Source: Cyanobacteriota bacterium
Lineage (GTDB): Bacteria; Acidobacteriota; Vicinamibacteria; Vicinamibacterales; UBA2999
Direction: 5' to 3'
Length of the DNA: 58,444 bases
Assembly: GCA_019752015.1 (NCBI GenBank)
Contig: JAIEMQ010000061.1
Span: 1 to 58,444, forward strand
Numbering within the stretch: the first letter of the stretch is position 1; each line of letters opens with the position of its first letter. Below, one piece after another: positions 4,511 through 57,708 of the stretch. Both the position numbers and the translations under genes were made by a program. The notes under the pieces were generated by a model. That model was given only the letters and a program-made list of their open reading frames with translations, was not told where the DNA came from and searched no databases.

Positions 4511-4597
4511 CATTTGGGGATTTGGGGATCTCGCGATTTGGTGATTTGGGTTTTGGCATTTGGGGATTTGGGGATTTGGGGATTTGGCAGGATTTGA
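4511..4597. repeat. Left octamer array of the S23 unit
   Basis: About ten degenerate 8-bp units, with ATTTGGGG the most regular (three perfect copies at 4559-4582). The unit is complementary to the units in the array at 5111. Confidence 0.85.
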
Positions 4598-4685: not shown

Positions 4686-5126
4686 ATGCTCCTTTGTTCG
4701 GACATGGACAAAGAGGAACTACAGGAACGGAGCCTTCAATTCGCGATCGACGTCCGGCCGATTTGCGAAATCGTCGCAACACTATCAGGCGGTCGAACGG
4801 CTGGTGAGCAGCTGCTCGCCTGCTCGTCGTCCGCGGCAGCCAATTATCGAGCCGCATGCCGCGCTCGCTCGCGCGCGGAATTCATCTCGAAGCTCGGTAC
4901 CGTCGTCGAAGAAAGCGATGAATCCGTGTATTGGCTCGAATACATCGCACGGAGCGGCCTGCGGACGCCAAATGAAGTGGAAAGTCATCTCGATGAAGCG
5001 CGTCAACTGCGCGCGATCTTTGCGGCGTCGTACGGAACGGCGCGCTTCAATTACAACCGGAAACCACGATCGCGGCGTCGCCTCGACGGAAACGCACCGA
5101 AGCAAAAAAAATCACGAAATCCCTAA
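4686..5126 (+). CDS. Four-helix-bundle protein (S23 / IVS-encoded family)
   Basis: A 146-residue mostly alpha-helical protein of the S23 family, first known from intervening sequences in 23S rRNA genes. The core is visible: an initial helix EELQERSLQFAIDV, a second helix with SGGRTAGEQLLACSSSAAANYRAACRARS, then FISKLGTVVEESDESVYWLEYI, and a last helix with HLDEARQLRAIFAASYGTA. The tail is basic (RKPRSRRRLDG...KQKK). The ATG at 4686 has GAGAGG 8 nt upstream; an ATG at 4704 begins exactly where relatives usually start. The fold resembles the Avd accessory protein of diversity-generating retroelements, but no reverse transcriptase is near. It sits alone inside inverted repeat arrays. Confidence 0.85.
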   Translation: MLLCSDMDKEELQERSLQFAIDVRPICEIVATLSGGRTAGEQLLACSSSAAANYRAACRARSRAEFISKLGTVVEESDESVYWLEYIARSGLRTPNEVESHLDEARQLRAIFAASYGTARFNYNRKPRSRRRLDGNAPKQKKSRNP

Positions 5127-5181
5127 ATCCCCAAATCCGTGACCCAAATCACCAAATCACCAAATCACCAACTCGCTAAAT
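5111..5181. repeat. Right octamer array of the S23 unit
   Basis: Units AAATCCCT, AAATCCCC and three consecutive AAATCACC, in the opposite orientation to the array at 4511. It overlaps the 3' end of the S23-type gene and runs into the stop region of the antiporter gene. Confidence 0.85.
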
Positions 5182-6390
5182 GTGATGGCTCCGTAGGAGC
5201 CTCGTCAGCATTGGCGACGTCATCATCGTTGTCGCCAGCGCCATGATCACGAGCGTGGTGAAGAGGCGCGGCGTCAGGACGCCGAGGTCGAGGCCGATGT
5301 TGAGCACGATCAGCTCGACCAGGCCCCGTGTGTTCATCAGCGCGCCGAGCGCCGCGCTGGTGCGCCAGTCGGTGCCGGTGAGCCTCGCGGCGACCGCCGT
5401 GCCGCCGAATTTCCCCGCCGTGGCGACGACGATGATCAACGCGCACAAGGCCCAGTCTTCGCCGGACTGGATCAAGCCGATTTGCGTGCGCAGGCCGGTA
5501 AATGCAAAAAAGGCGGGCAGGAACATCACTCGCACGATGTCGGCGATGCGTTCGGTGACGCGCATCGAGACCTGGCTGTCGTGCGGAATGATCGTGCCGA
5601 TTAGAAACGCGCCGAAGATCGCGTGGATGCCGATGAACTCGGTCGCCACTGAAGAGAGCAGCACGGCAACGAGCACCAGCGCCACGCTCTGTTCGCCGAG
5701 GTGCGTCGATCGATCGAGGCGCGCGGCCGCCGCCTTCGCCAGCGCCCGGCCGGCGGTCAACATCACGCCGATATACAGCGCGGTCAGCGCGGCGGTGCGG
5801 ATCGCCGCCGACGGCGTCGCCTGCATCACGCTGACGGCGAAGGCGAGCAGGCACCAGGCGATCGCGTCGTTGATCGCCGCGCAAGTGAGCGCGAGGATGC
5901 CGAGCGGCGTGCGCTGCAGGCCGCGATCCTCGAGGATGCGCGCGAGCACGGGAAACGCGGTGATCGACAGCGCGACGCCGATAAACACGACGAACGAAGT
6001 GCGGTCGACATGATCGGGGCTGATCGCGTTGTGCAGCGCCAGCGCCAGCATGGCGCCGAATGCAAACGGCACCACGATCGCCGCGAGCGCGATCATCATG
6101 GTTTTCGAGACGCTGCCGCGCAGCGCGCCAAGGTCGAGCTCGAGTCCGACCAGGAACATGTAGAGGATGACGCCGAGCTGCGCGATGACGCTGATCACCG
6201 GCGCGATCTCGGATGGCAGGATCGCGGCCTGCAACTCCGGCGAGAGGCGCCCGAGCAGGGACGGCCCGAGCAGGATGCCGCCGACGACTTCGCCGATCAC
6301 GGCCGGCTGGTCGAACTGCCTGAACAGTGCGCCGACGAGCCGGGCGGTCAGCATGATGACCGTCAGCGCCAGCAGGACGCTTAAGAGCAT
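5176..6390 (-). CDS. CPA2-family cation/proton antiporter
   Basis: A 404-residue integral membrane protein with about twelve hydrophobic segments. Family features are [20 protein letters not shown] in the first repeat, GLELDL near residue 83, [14 protein letters not shown], and the ion-site motif [10 protein letters not shown] near 170, which has the Asn-Asp pair of electrogenic CPA2 exchangers. The C-terminus ends right after the last membrane segment, with no TrkA-N/RCK regulatory domain such as KefB/KefC carry. It probably exchanges Na+ or K+ for H+ at the inner membrane. No partner gene is adjacent. Confidence 0.9.
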
Positions 6391-8894: not shown

Positions 8895-9003
8895 ACAAAC
8901 ATACACGGAACACACAGAATCACAGAAAACACAGAAATCTTTTTTGGAAAACCCAAAAGGCTTCTGTGCTTCTGTGCTTCAATGTTTCTGTGTATGTTTG
9001 TCC
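8888..9003. repeat. Palindromic A-rich repeat array, probable bidirectional terminator
   Basis: The left part has ACACAGAA-like 8-9 bp units and the right part has CTTCTGTG units in opposite orientation. The outermost 11 bases on each side (CAAACATACAC and its complement) match exactly. It fills the junction between convergent genes ending at 8894 and 9007. Confidence 0.8.
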
Positions 9004-10274: not shown

Positions 10275-10431
10275 GGTCCGCCTAAAGGCGGACCCTCACA
10301 GGGTTCTTGACCCTCACAGGGTTCTTGACCCTCACAGGGTTCTTGACCCTCACAGGGTTCTTGTGGAGCCCTTGTGGGAACCCGGACTCCCTCACAGGCC
10401 CTTGTCGGGCTCCGGCTTTAGCCGGGCCTTA
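10275..10431. repeat. Hairpin-dense spacer with four 18-bp tandem repeats
   Basis: A perfect hairpin GGTCCGCC-TAAA-GGCGGACC (10,275-10,294) is followed by four identical 18-bp units starting ACCCTCACAGGGT at 10,292, 10,310, 10,328 and 10,346. Each unit is itself an inverted repeat (ACCCT-CAC-AGGGT). A final CCGGCT/AGCCGG hairpin lies at the stop of the receptor gene. It may terminate transcription of the TonB receptor gene. Confidence 0.85.
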
Positions 10432-12553: not shown

Positions 12554-12656
12554 GGTGCCTGGGTGCCTGGGTGCCTGGGTGCCTGGGTGCCTGGGTGCCT
12601 GGGTGCCTGGGTGCGTGAGTGCCTGAGTGTCCGAGTGTCTGAGTGTCTGAGTGGGA
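12554..12656. repeat. Octamer tandem array GGTGCCTG
   Basis: Seven perfect or near-perfect copies of the unit GGTGCCTG are followed by degenerate octamers (GTGCGTGA, GTGCCTGA, GTGTCCGA, GTGTCTGA). It lies immediately upstream of the TonB receptor promoter and start, and ends just before the remnant at 12,665. Confidence 0.9.
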
Positions 12657-16673: not shown

Positions 16674-16722
16674 GGGAGCCGGGAGCCGGGAGCCGGGAGG
16701 CGGGAGCCGGGAGCCGGGAGCC
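16674..16722. repeat. Heptamer tandem array GGGAGCC x7
   Basis: Seven adjacent 7-bp units fill exactly 49 bp; six are GGGAGCC and the fourth is GGGAGGC. It lies between the divergent udgX start and the AAC(3) remnant, so it may affect either promoter. Confidence 0.92.
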
Positions 16723-16737
16723 GATAGAATCGACAGC

Positions 16738-56641: not shown

Positions 56642-57022
56642 TTGAAGCGTCACGTCGATTTCCTCGCGACACTCTATGTAGCCTGGGGCGCGCTCTTCGC
56701 GCTCGTTGCCATTGCCGGCTTCGCGCTGGCCGGCGGCGCCTTTGCGATCGCCGAATCGACGGGGCCGGTTCGCTTCAGCTCGGAGATGGCGGCGCGCTTC
56801 GCCGGCGTCTCGATCACGATCATCGCGCTCATCGCGCTCATCTGGGCGGCGCTGCACATCTTCGTCGGCCGCCGGATGCGCCGGATGCTGCCGTCAGCGC
56901 GCCTGATGGCGCTCGGTCTCGCGCTCGGCAACCTGACGCTGTTTCCGTTCGGAACGGCGCTCGGCGGCTATGCGCTGTGGGCGTTGCTCAAAGACGAGGG
57001 ACGGAGGCTCTTTGAATCATAG
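56642..57022 (+). CDS. Small membrane protein of unknown function
   Basis: A 126-residue protein from a TTG at 56,642, 7 bp after the preceding stop. Three or four membrane segments: TLYVAWGALFALVAIAGFALAGG, ITIIALIALIWAALHIFVG, LMALGLALGNLTLFPFGTALGGYALWALL. RRMRRMLPSARL separates the second and third. Likely co-transcribed with the DnaJ-zinc-motif gene. No known family assignment. Confidence 0.7.
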   Translation: MKRHVDFLATLYVAWGALFALVAIAGFALAGGAFAIAESTGPVRFSSEMAARFAGVSITIIALIALIWAALHIFVGRRMRRMLPSARLMALGLALGNLTLFPFGTALGGYALWALLKDEGRRLFES

Positions 57023-57087
57023 GTTCCAAGGGTTCCAGGGGTTCCAGGCGTTCCAAAGGCGGGGTTCTATCGGGGTTCCAGGAGTTC
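57021..57087. repeat. Left nonamer array of the second S23 unit
   Basis: Four consecutive nonamers with core GTTCC, then two further degenerate copies. About 130 nt of unannotated leader separates it from the gene at 57,221. Confidence 0.85.
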
Positions 57088-57220
57088 TTTGATCGCAGGA
57101 GTTGCAACATCGTTCGCGATGACACAGATCAATTTCTGAAGCGCGGCCGACGACCATTCCCGAGAATCCAAACGAATTCGCGAAATCGCGTGCGGCAATC
57201 CGGTTGCTTCGGATTCGCGC

Positions 57221-57643
57221 ATGGCTGGATGGAAAGACTTCAGAGAGATCGCCGCGTGGCGGCATGCCCGCGAACTAAAACTCCAGATCGATGAGTTCCT
57301 GGAACGGCCTAACGTAAAGAAAAAATATGAGCGGTACGATCAGCTCTATAACTCTGCGCGTTCGGGTCCGAGCAACATCGCCGAGGGCTTCGCCAAATTC
57401 GGAAACAAGGAGTTCGCACGCTACGCGCGTATCGCGAAGGGTTCGGAGGTCGAGGTGATCAATCACCTGATCGATCTGCGCGACCAGCGGTTAATCTCCC
57501 ACGACGAGTTGCTGCTGTCGGAACATAAAGCTCGCATTGCGCTCAAGGCGGTGGTGGGCTTGATCCGGCATCTCGAAAATTCACCCGATCCGCCGCGCCC
57601 GCCGAAACCTAAGCGAGACGATAACGACGACGAGAACCCATAA
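57221..57643 (+). CDS. Four-helix-bundle protein (S23 / IVS-encoded family)
   Basis: A 140-residue helical protein: GWKDFREIAAWRHARELKLQIDEFL, then YDQLYNSARSGPSNIAEGFAKFGNKEFARYARIAKGSEVEVINHLIDLRDQRLIS, and a last helix with LLSEHKARIALKAVVGLIRHL. The SGPSNIAEGFAKF...EFARY segment is the strongest family signature. The tail is proline-rich then acidic (DDNDDENP), unlike the basic tail of the protein at 4686. The ATG at 57,221 gives the standard start. It lies inside inverted nonamer arrays. Confidence 0.9.
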   Translation: MAGWKDFREIAAWRHARELKLQIDEFLERPNVKKKYERYDQLYNSARSGPSNIAEGFAKFGNKEFARYARIAKGSEVEVINHLIDLRDQRLISHDELLLSEHKARIALKAVVGLIRHLENSPDPPRPPKPKRDDNDDENP

Positions 57644-57708
57644 CCCTTGGAACCCCGTCGGAACCGCGCCTCTGGAACCACTGGAACCCCTGGCACCTAT
57701 GGAACCGG
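57643..57708. repeat. Right nonamer array of the second S23 unit
   Basis: Units TGGAACCAC, TGGAACCCC, TGGCACCTA, TGGAACCGG in opposite orientation to the array at 57,021. It abuts the stop codon of the S23-type gene and the stop of the convergent yidD gene. Confidence 0.85.

Follow-up and report, generated by a model that had tools for sequence, protein, structure and literature searches.

In many bacterial phyla, S23 genes are enclosed by two inverted stretches of DNA, mostly tandem units of 7–9 bp, and the repeat unit tracks the clade of the encoded protein, neither the locus nor the genome. This dependence of the repeat word on the protein clade suggests that the protein and the repeats form one self-spreading unit. 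We consider it rather probable that an S23 gene and its two arms are a single selfish repeat unit, resembling the RAYT/REP systems but having no transposase.

The window, the whole stretch of 58,444 nucleotides analyzed here, holds near its right end an S23 gene with an arm on either side.

57022..57086, + strand: left (upstream) arm of 9-bp tandem units GGTTCCAGG, from the TRF row 57022-57056 and the arm alignment
57221..57643, + strand: S23 / four helix bundle protein gene, 140 aa, of the GGTKC-array clade, from PF05635, TIGR02436, the predicted model and its fold matches
57642..57706, + strand: right (downstream) arm, an inverted copy with units TGGAACCCC, from the TRF row 57672-57706 and the arm alignment

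TRF reports 3.9 copies of a 9-bp unit at 57022-57056 (GGTTCCAAG) and again at 57672-57706 (CTGGAACCA), and the right arm starts within the stop codon of the S23 gene. For the arm score, the right flank was reverse-complemented and aligned to the left flank. By this measure, 57022-57086 and 57642-57706 are ungapped 65-bp arms, complementary at 53 of 65 positions, with a score of 70. The 99th percentile of 1000 dinucleotide shuffles of both flanks is 32, and their maximum is 37. The sequence-only reading had placed an S23 gene at 57,221 between inverted 9-bp arrays; TRF and the arm score confirm this arrangement, and the coordinates given for it are correct, off by a few bases at most.

The 57221-57643 protein matches PF05635, its sole Pfam family (E 2.4e-17, 63.5 bits against a cut-off of 33.8), and TIGR02436 (E 5.1e-17, 62.1 bits against a cut-off of 24). 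Its predicted structure has a mean pLDDT of 93.2, and the model matches 2gsc (Z 18.3, rmsd 1.4 over 113) and 2rld (Z 15.5). A PDB sequence search identified 2gsc as the one clear relative when run with the single protein, and both 2gsc and 2rld when run with the profile. The protein is a member of the S23/TIGR02436 family with a predicted four-helix-bundle fold. Avd proteins of diversity-generating retroelements share this fold (8ub8, Z 13.5; 4dwl, Z 13.1), but sequence identity to them is 4-5%, and Z values near 13 may be generic for helical bundles. PF05635 has been described as related to Avd (PMC10053308). Third codon positions vary more than first and second positions in 14 of the 14 closest pairs of S23 genes, as expected under purifying selection.

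Further arrays lie elsewhere in the window, among them those of a second S23 locus.

4511..4569, + strand: left arm of the second S23 locus, 8-bp units ATTTGGGG, from the arm alignment; the TRF array extends to 4587
4686..5126, + strand: second S23 gene, 146 aa, AANYRA clade with GATYTG-type arrays (TIGR02436 E 1.2e-15)
5125..5182, + strand: right arm of the second S23 locus, an inverted copy, from TRF and the arm alignment
8903..8992, + strand: gene-free inverted-array hairpin (ACACAGAA ... TTCTGTG), from TRF rows, with a GxxExxY-class-like word
12554..12653, + strand: single-orientation GGTGCCTG array without S23, from TRF, its word class being that of the 57221 locus
16674..16723, + strand: single-orientation GGGAGCC array without S23, its word shared with the arms of S23 locus L015 (contig C38)

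The second S23 protein scores 33.1 bits against PF05635, slightly below the cut-off of 33.8. It belongs to a clade other than that of the 57221 protein, and its 8-bp unit is unrelated to the 9-bp unit there. The two units of the window are two classes within a larger code that links protein clade to repeat word. Two such loci in one stretch had been judged unlikely to arise by chance; the arm score is 70 at the 57221 locus, where shuffles reach at most 37, and 61 at the second (4511-4569 against 5125-5182). The neighborhood of the first S23 locus along the window, identified by a 404-aa gene, was located in 4 of 9 genomes; the three relatives with this neighbor gene have no S23 at the orthologous site, and the left neighbor differs there. 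The window also contains an 18-bp tandem array, GACCCTCACAGGGTTCTT, at 10291-10363 (4.1 copies, 100% match by TRF) and a selenocysteine tRNA at 95-186 on the − strand, whose 61.2 bits exceed the Rfam gathering score.

The source genome (G000; 5.9 Mb in 82 contigs) has 12 TIGR02436 matches in a profile search, and nearly every locus has a different repeat unit in its flanks. A score of at least 34 was taken as the threshold for inverted arms, with at least 40 as the stricter one. Eight of the 12 loci reach 34 with 400-bp flanks. Control placements were drawn from 1.24 Mb of the same genome: 1 of 234 other genes of 100-200 aa scores at least 34, as do 2 of 353 intergenic placements with an S23-sized gap (320 bp), and among 3000 random placements 0.9% reach 34 and 0.13% reach 40. 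Intergenic placements with a 10-bp gap are positive in 19 of 353 cases; these are gene-free hairpins, and their rate is far under that of S23. A survey of the genome's S23 genes had been proposed as a check, and a comparison with intergenic regions as a possible refutation. Over this 1.24 Mb, intergenic regions are not as array-rich as S23 flanks (2/353 against 8/12), and the supposition that the arrays are tied to S23 genes holds well beyond chance.

Some loci of the source genome match the plan imperfectly. At L016 and L022, the inverted arrays lie farther out and enclose more than the S23 domain; L024 is a truncated S23 whose nearby arrays are in direct orientation; L013 has an inverted repeat (score 52) without clear tandem units; and the left arm of L015 is more than 400 bp from the gene. 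In L022 (G000:C29:64629-64871), the S23 domain stands within a single 404-aa open frame together with an upstream repeat protein, which we take to be NHL-like, and inverted AAGGCAG arrays flank the entire frame.

Across the order, 59 genomes were searched, G000 and 58 relatives, and 43 have S23 matches. The loci are top hits per genome, not random draws; L048 was excluded before counting, and of 126 distinct loci 124 were scored with 450-bp flanks after L248 and L304 were dropped for short flanks. Inverted arms reach at least 34 at 103 of the 124 and at least 40 at 97; 21 are under the threshold, and the direct orientation reaches 34 in 13. Most arms, not all, are tandem arrays, since 96 of the 103 exceed 95% of their own shuffles in periodicity and 79 have a self-match of at least 0.6 (54 of at least 0.7). 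Many phyla are represented in a set of the best 80 of 586 loci. Coverage outside the order was the canonical S23 clade and a few plasmid loci. Of these best 80, 46 score at least 34, 38 at least 40, and 34 fall under the threshold, with the direct orientation reaching 34 in 13; among 153 shifted controls one reaches 34 and none 40. On cyanobacterial plasmids, two of the three S23 loci retrieved score at least 34, one of them higher in direct orientation. At one plasmid locus, L396 of Pseudanabaena galeata (NZ_CP112875.1), an S23 gene with long AAAGCTA arrays sits inside a CRISPR-Cas locus, with cas6 on one side and cas4 on the other.

The code emerges when loci are compared by protein. The 25 loci of the 57221 clade (DQLxDAARSAPxNIAEG) come from 25 genomes, and the arms of 22 contain GGTGC or GGTTC (GGTKC), words picked after viewing; none of 78 other loci has them. 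In 71 of 81 cases, the arms of a locus are closer to those of the nearest protein in another genome than to the arms of each S23 paralogue there, and the mean arm similarity (4-mer cosine) is 0.44 for the nearest protein against 0.07 for paralogues. Pairwise protein and arm similarity have a Spearman correlation of 0.258; in 500 permutations of arms among same-genome paralogues, the mean is 0.008 (sd 0.022) and the maximum 0.085. The code is not seen in the spacer between arm and gene (38 of 79; 0.22 against 0.19) or in the flank outside the arm (31 of 81; 0.26 against 0.23). It weakens with protein distance, and at similarity below 0.4 the count is 45 of 82 (0.19 against 0.07; spacer 23 of 80). 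Chance or base composition as the source of the arms is excluded by the shuffles, the random placements, and the gene-centered, intergenic, shifted, and spacer and flank controls.

For other clades, the words were read by eye: GATYTG/GATTG in the AANYRA clade, A-rich AAGTGA in the SGANLEE clade, and 7-bp CAGTAGG/AGTNGYC-like words in the canonical SIPSNIAEG clade. Fixed words are less clean here than in the GGTKC clade, being found at 17 and 12 of 45 loci for AANYRA and SGANLEE combined and at 20 of 29 for SIPSNIAEG. The code might also arise from joint inheritance of gene and arms, provided that something else keeps array words from changing fast.

Over the 59 genomes, S23 count correlates with Y1_Tnp (rho 0.58, or 0.52 after genome size), with GxxExxY (0.61), and with genome size (0.52), but not with the count of reverse transcriptases (rho 0.14). 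Given the Y1 correlation, a transposase unrelated to S23 might be active in trans. A reverse transcriptase is another candidate, as Avd proteins act with such an enzyme (PMC10053308). S23 would be cargo or cofactor in either case. However, G000 has no RVT_1 match at E <= 0.001 despite its 12 S23, which rejects the reverse transcriptase as partner and also sets S23 apart from Avd, and Y1 transposases, though correlated, have no match in three S23-rich genomes, G022 (5 S23), G041 (17), and G051 (8). We hold movement of the units by either enzyme in trans to be very unlikely.

The arms have a preferred polarity, with the G-rich strand upstream of the gene. In the order, G outnumbers C in the upstream arm at 87 loci and is outnumbered at 12; across phyla, the numbers are 42 and 3 within the best 80 of 586 loci, where upstream arms contain AGT 100 times and ACT 13 times. 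Mismatches between arms, read on the sense strand, comprise 166 G:T and 151 A:C pairs, and this lack of a clear wobble bias means that an RNA stem is not singled out; selection for an RNA stem was set aside on this test. The same counts weigh against a further explanation, in which the arms pair in the transcript around the S23 frame, RNase III cuts the hairpin, and S23 acts on RNA, as do the many stems with no gene in the loop. In its favor are the gene family and the plan, an open frame in the loop of a long stem, common to the intervening sequence of Coxiella 23S rRNA, whose 28-bp stem sits in a helix loop and is cleaved by RNase III in vitro (PMC4990558), and the fold matches to Avd (8ub8, 4dwl), part of a ribonucleoprotein in diversity-generating retroelements. 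We hold this RNA-hairpin explanation to be quite unlikely. The window locus resembles such intervening sequences in placing an S23-family frame in the loop of a long inverted repeat (65-bp arms, 53/65 complementary). It differs in that it lies outside an rRNA gene, with protein genes as neighbors and only tRNA and tRNA-Sec found in an Rfam search of the window, and in that its arms are tandem arrays with a clade-specific word.

The words of the arms also occur away from S23 genes. In 1.24 Mb of G000, they recur as single arrays and as 22 tight gene-free hairpins. Of 185 dispersed arrays there, 108 match arms from the genome's own 13 loci (11 S23, one GxxExxY, and one S23 remnant, with L013 omitted and six of the 13 arm sequences entered by hand), whereas 300 draws of 13 arms from other genera give a mean of 22.6 matches (sd 8.5, maximum 48). 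The polarity of S23 arms is kept in 20 of the 22 hairpins and in 16 of the 16 whose word assignment is at least 0.5; the window hairpin at 8903..8992 is one of the 22, weakly assigned (0.36) and scored in the outward orientation. An ACGAAAA array of 17.3 copies lies at G000:C9:87769-87889. The idea of a unit specific to its locus is not supported by these results, as the word follows the protein clade (71/81) and returns without S23 in the 22 hairpins and many single arrays.

Relatives give a less even picture. No hairpins occur in 526 kb from seven S23-null genomes and 10 occur in 640 kb from eight S23-bearing relatives, four of which have none. Hairpin density correlates with S23 count (0.56, p 0.02), and array density does so weakly (Spearman 0.43, p 0.10; S23-null against positive, p 0.08), in a sample in which S23 count itself correlates with genome size (0.57). 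G037, with 10 S23, has no arrays, and G022 and G055 have two each in 80 kb.

S23 may instead be a word-specific DNA- or RNA-binding regulator, with the arms serving as operator or mRNA control sites for S23 itself and the dispersed arrays as its regulon. A regulator would fit the clade-word code, the conservation of the coding sequence, and the dispersed cognate arrays just as well. In Geobacter metallireducens, octa- and heptanucleotide arrays that form pairs on opposite strands have been described as putative sites of a global regulator (PMC2700814), and the TAACTGA arrays of Beggiatoaceae as possibly regulatory (PMC4679880). However, the gene-free hairpins have no promoter bias, with 12 between codirectional genes, 5 between convergent genes, 3 between divergent genes, and 2 inside an open frame, against a background of 185 codirectional, 78 convergent, and 94 divergent gaps. 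Nor are they concentrated between convergent genes (5 of 22), so a role as terminators there was rejected. At the orthologous site of nine congeners, moreover, some genomes have paired arrays, some a single array, some a hairpin with another word, and some no array. A regulator is unlikely, though it retains some chance.

That orthologous site shows how quickly the arrays change. The right-hand neighbor gene of the 57221 locus is present in 9 of 9 genomes of the genus searched, and the arrays beside it were judged by eye. In G000, S23 stands between GGTTCC arms. In G001, inverted GGTGCC arrays enclose an S23 remnant that aligns over 41 aa at 54% identity, with stops inside a longer match. G004 has a mini-hairpin, GGTTCCaGGAACC, and no S23, G007 a hairpin with another word, and G002 and G005 a one-way GGTGCC array; G003 and G008 have neither array nor S23, and G006 is without the left neighbors. 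The differing words and states among congeners imply that both change fast and that paired arms stay matched. A single fixed terminal sequence is rejected, in line with the sequence-only reading, since words vary between loci and between congeners at one site, where G001 has GGTGCC and G000 GGTTCC. These states show turnover, not its direction, and insertion and loss both fit. Elsewhere in G000, an apparent C-terminal remnant of S23, seen by eye between inverted GCCTGTT arrays (C9:144129-144316), was read as a decayed unit.

In a further alternative, S23 genes would insert passively into inverted arrays that slippage and templated repair had already made. In its favor, both single arrays and hairpins without a gene are common, and arrays occur with and without S23 at the orthologous site. 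Yet G000 holds many array words and each clade sits in its own, and permuting arms among paralogues within a genome abolishes the link. Passive insertion is therefore highly improbable.

A second protein family shares the architecture. The GxxExxY gene at G000:C9:92064-92623 is enclosed by inverted CACGGAGA arrays, and its protein belongs to PF13366 of the PD-(D/E)XK superfamily (E 1.2e-41). Such genes are frequent in the order. Thirty GxxExxY loci were gathered and 29 scored, L236 having been dropped; 21 of the 29 have an inverted score of at least 34. The direct orientation reaches 34 in 5 of 29 and exceeds the inverted score in 3 of the 21. A CRGAG, ACGAAG, GCGAAG, or GCAGAT word, picked after viewing, is found in 20 of 21 GxxExxY arms against 7 of 103 S23 arms. 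Plasmid copies from Bacteroidota and Gemmatimonadota (Bernardetia, Bacteroides, Gemmatirosa) carry the CRGAG-type word, and three of the seven plasmid loci retrieved score at least 34, that of Gemmatirosa in direct orientation also. The arrays are thus not exclusive to S23, since GxxExxY genes share the plan with a word of their own. Of the sequence-only reading as a whole, the tie of arrays to S23 and the rejection of a fixed terminal sequence are retained, and locus specificity is not supported.

REPINs are a known system close to RAYT/REP. The RAYT/REP/BIME systems (PMC2817692) resemble the S23 loci in four respects. The gene lies between two inverted cognate repeats (S23: 103/124, and 46 of the best 80); the repeats coevolve with the protein (71/81, with the within-genome permutations and controls); cognate repeats are dispersed (108/185 arrays against a mean of 22.6 with foreign arms); and paired gene-free copies occur. 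The RAYT protein, however, is a Y1/HUH transposase, whereas S23 is a four-helix bundle with PF05635 as its only Pfam family, and REPs are single palindromes with a GT(A/G)G head, whereas S23 arms are tandem 7-9 bp arrays. With the four hallmarks present and the Y1 transposase absent, S23 would work like such a system without being a member of it.

We infer that S23 binds its word and that the unit is mobile. The S23 protein would recognize its own word, as DNA, hairpin single-stranded DNA, or RNA, and promote the copying, growth, or retention of arrays bearing that word, around its own gene and in trans. As S23 has no recognized catalytic domain, host enzymes would supply the chemistry. Copying of one arm from the other, or selection for pairing, may keep the arms complementary, and loss of the S23 gene would leave a hairpin or a single array. 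GxxExxY, with its PD-(D/E)XK fold, would be a second, independent protein with the same plan and another word.

Short intergenic heptanucleotide arrays in many copies are also known from cyanobacteria as STRRs. The TAACTGA arrays of Beggiatoaceae are similar in being intergenic 7-bp tandem arrays in many copies but are almost all direct, with one inverted, and helix-bundle and 23S terms are absent from that paper (PMC4679880). The arrays of Geobacter metallireducens share tandem units in opposite-strand pairs and occur in tens of copies, but were read as regulator sites, in a paper whose main text does not use the term S23 (PMC2700814).

Short intergenic arrays have been noted without explanation in several bacterial genomes, and dispersed 7-9 bp arrays were earlier read as regulatory or as products of slippage (PMC4679880, PMC2700814). 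The S23 (23S_rRNA_IVP) domain has been termed functionally uncharacterized (PMC11270868), and what the S23-bearing rRNA intervening sequences do, and where they come from, has been described as unclear (PMC4990558). Titles and abstract openings in the open-licence literature yielded nothing on S23 or GxxExxY genes flanked by cognate tandem arrays. We tentatively propose, as a possibility short of an even chance, that S23 and GxxExxY genes encode the proteins of a class of selfish tandem-repeat elements found throughout bacteria, in which every clade of protein recognizes a 7-9 bp word of its own. These small proteins, one type lacking a recognized catalytic site, would cause short intergenic arrays to arise, pair, and spread, and the intervening sequences of 23S rRNA would belong to the class as its ribosomal branch. 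The code from clade to word joins two puzzles, the function of S23 and the dispersed 7-9 bp arrays, and renders both testable. If the units move, they would form a RAYT/REP-like system built on a protein other than a transposase.
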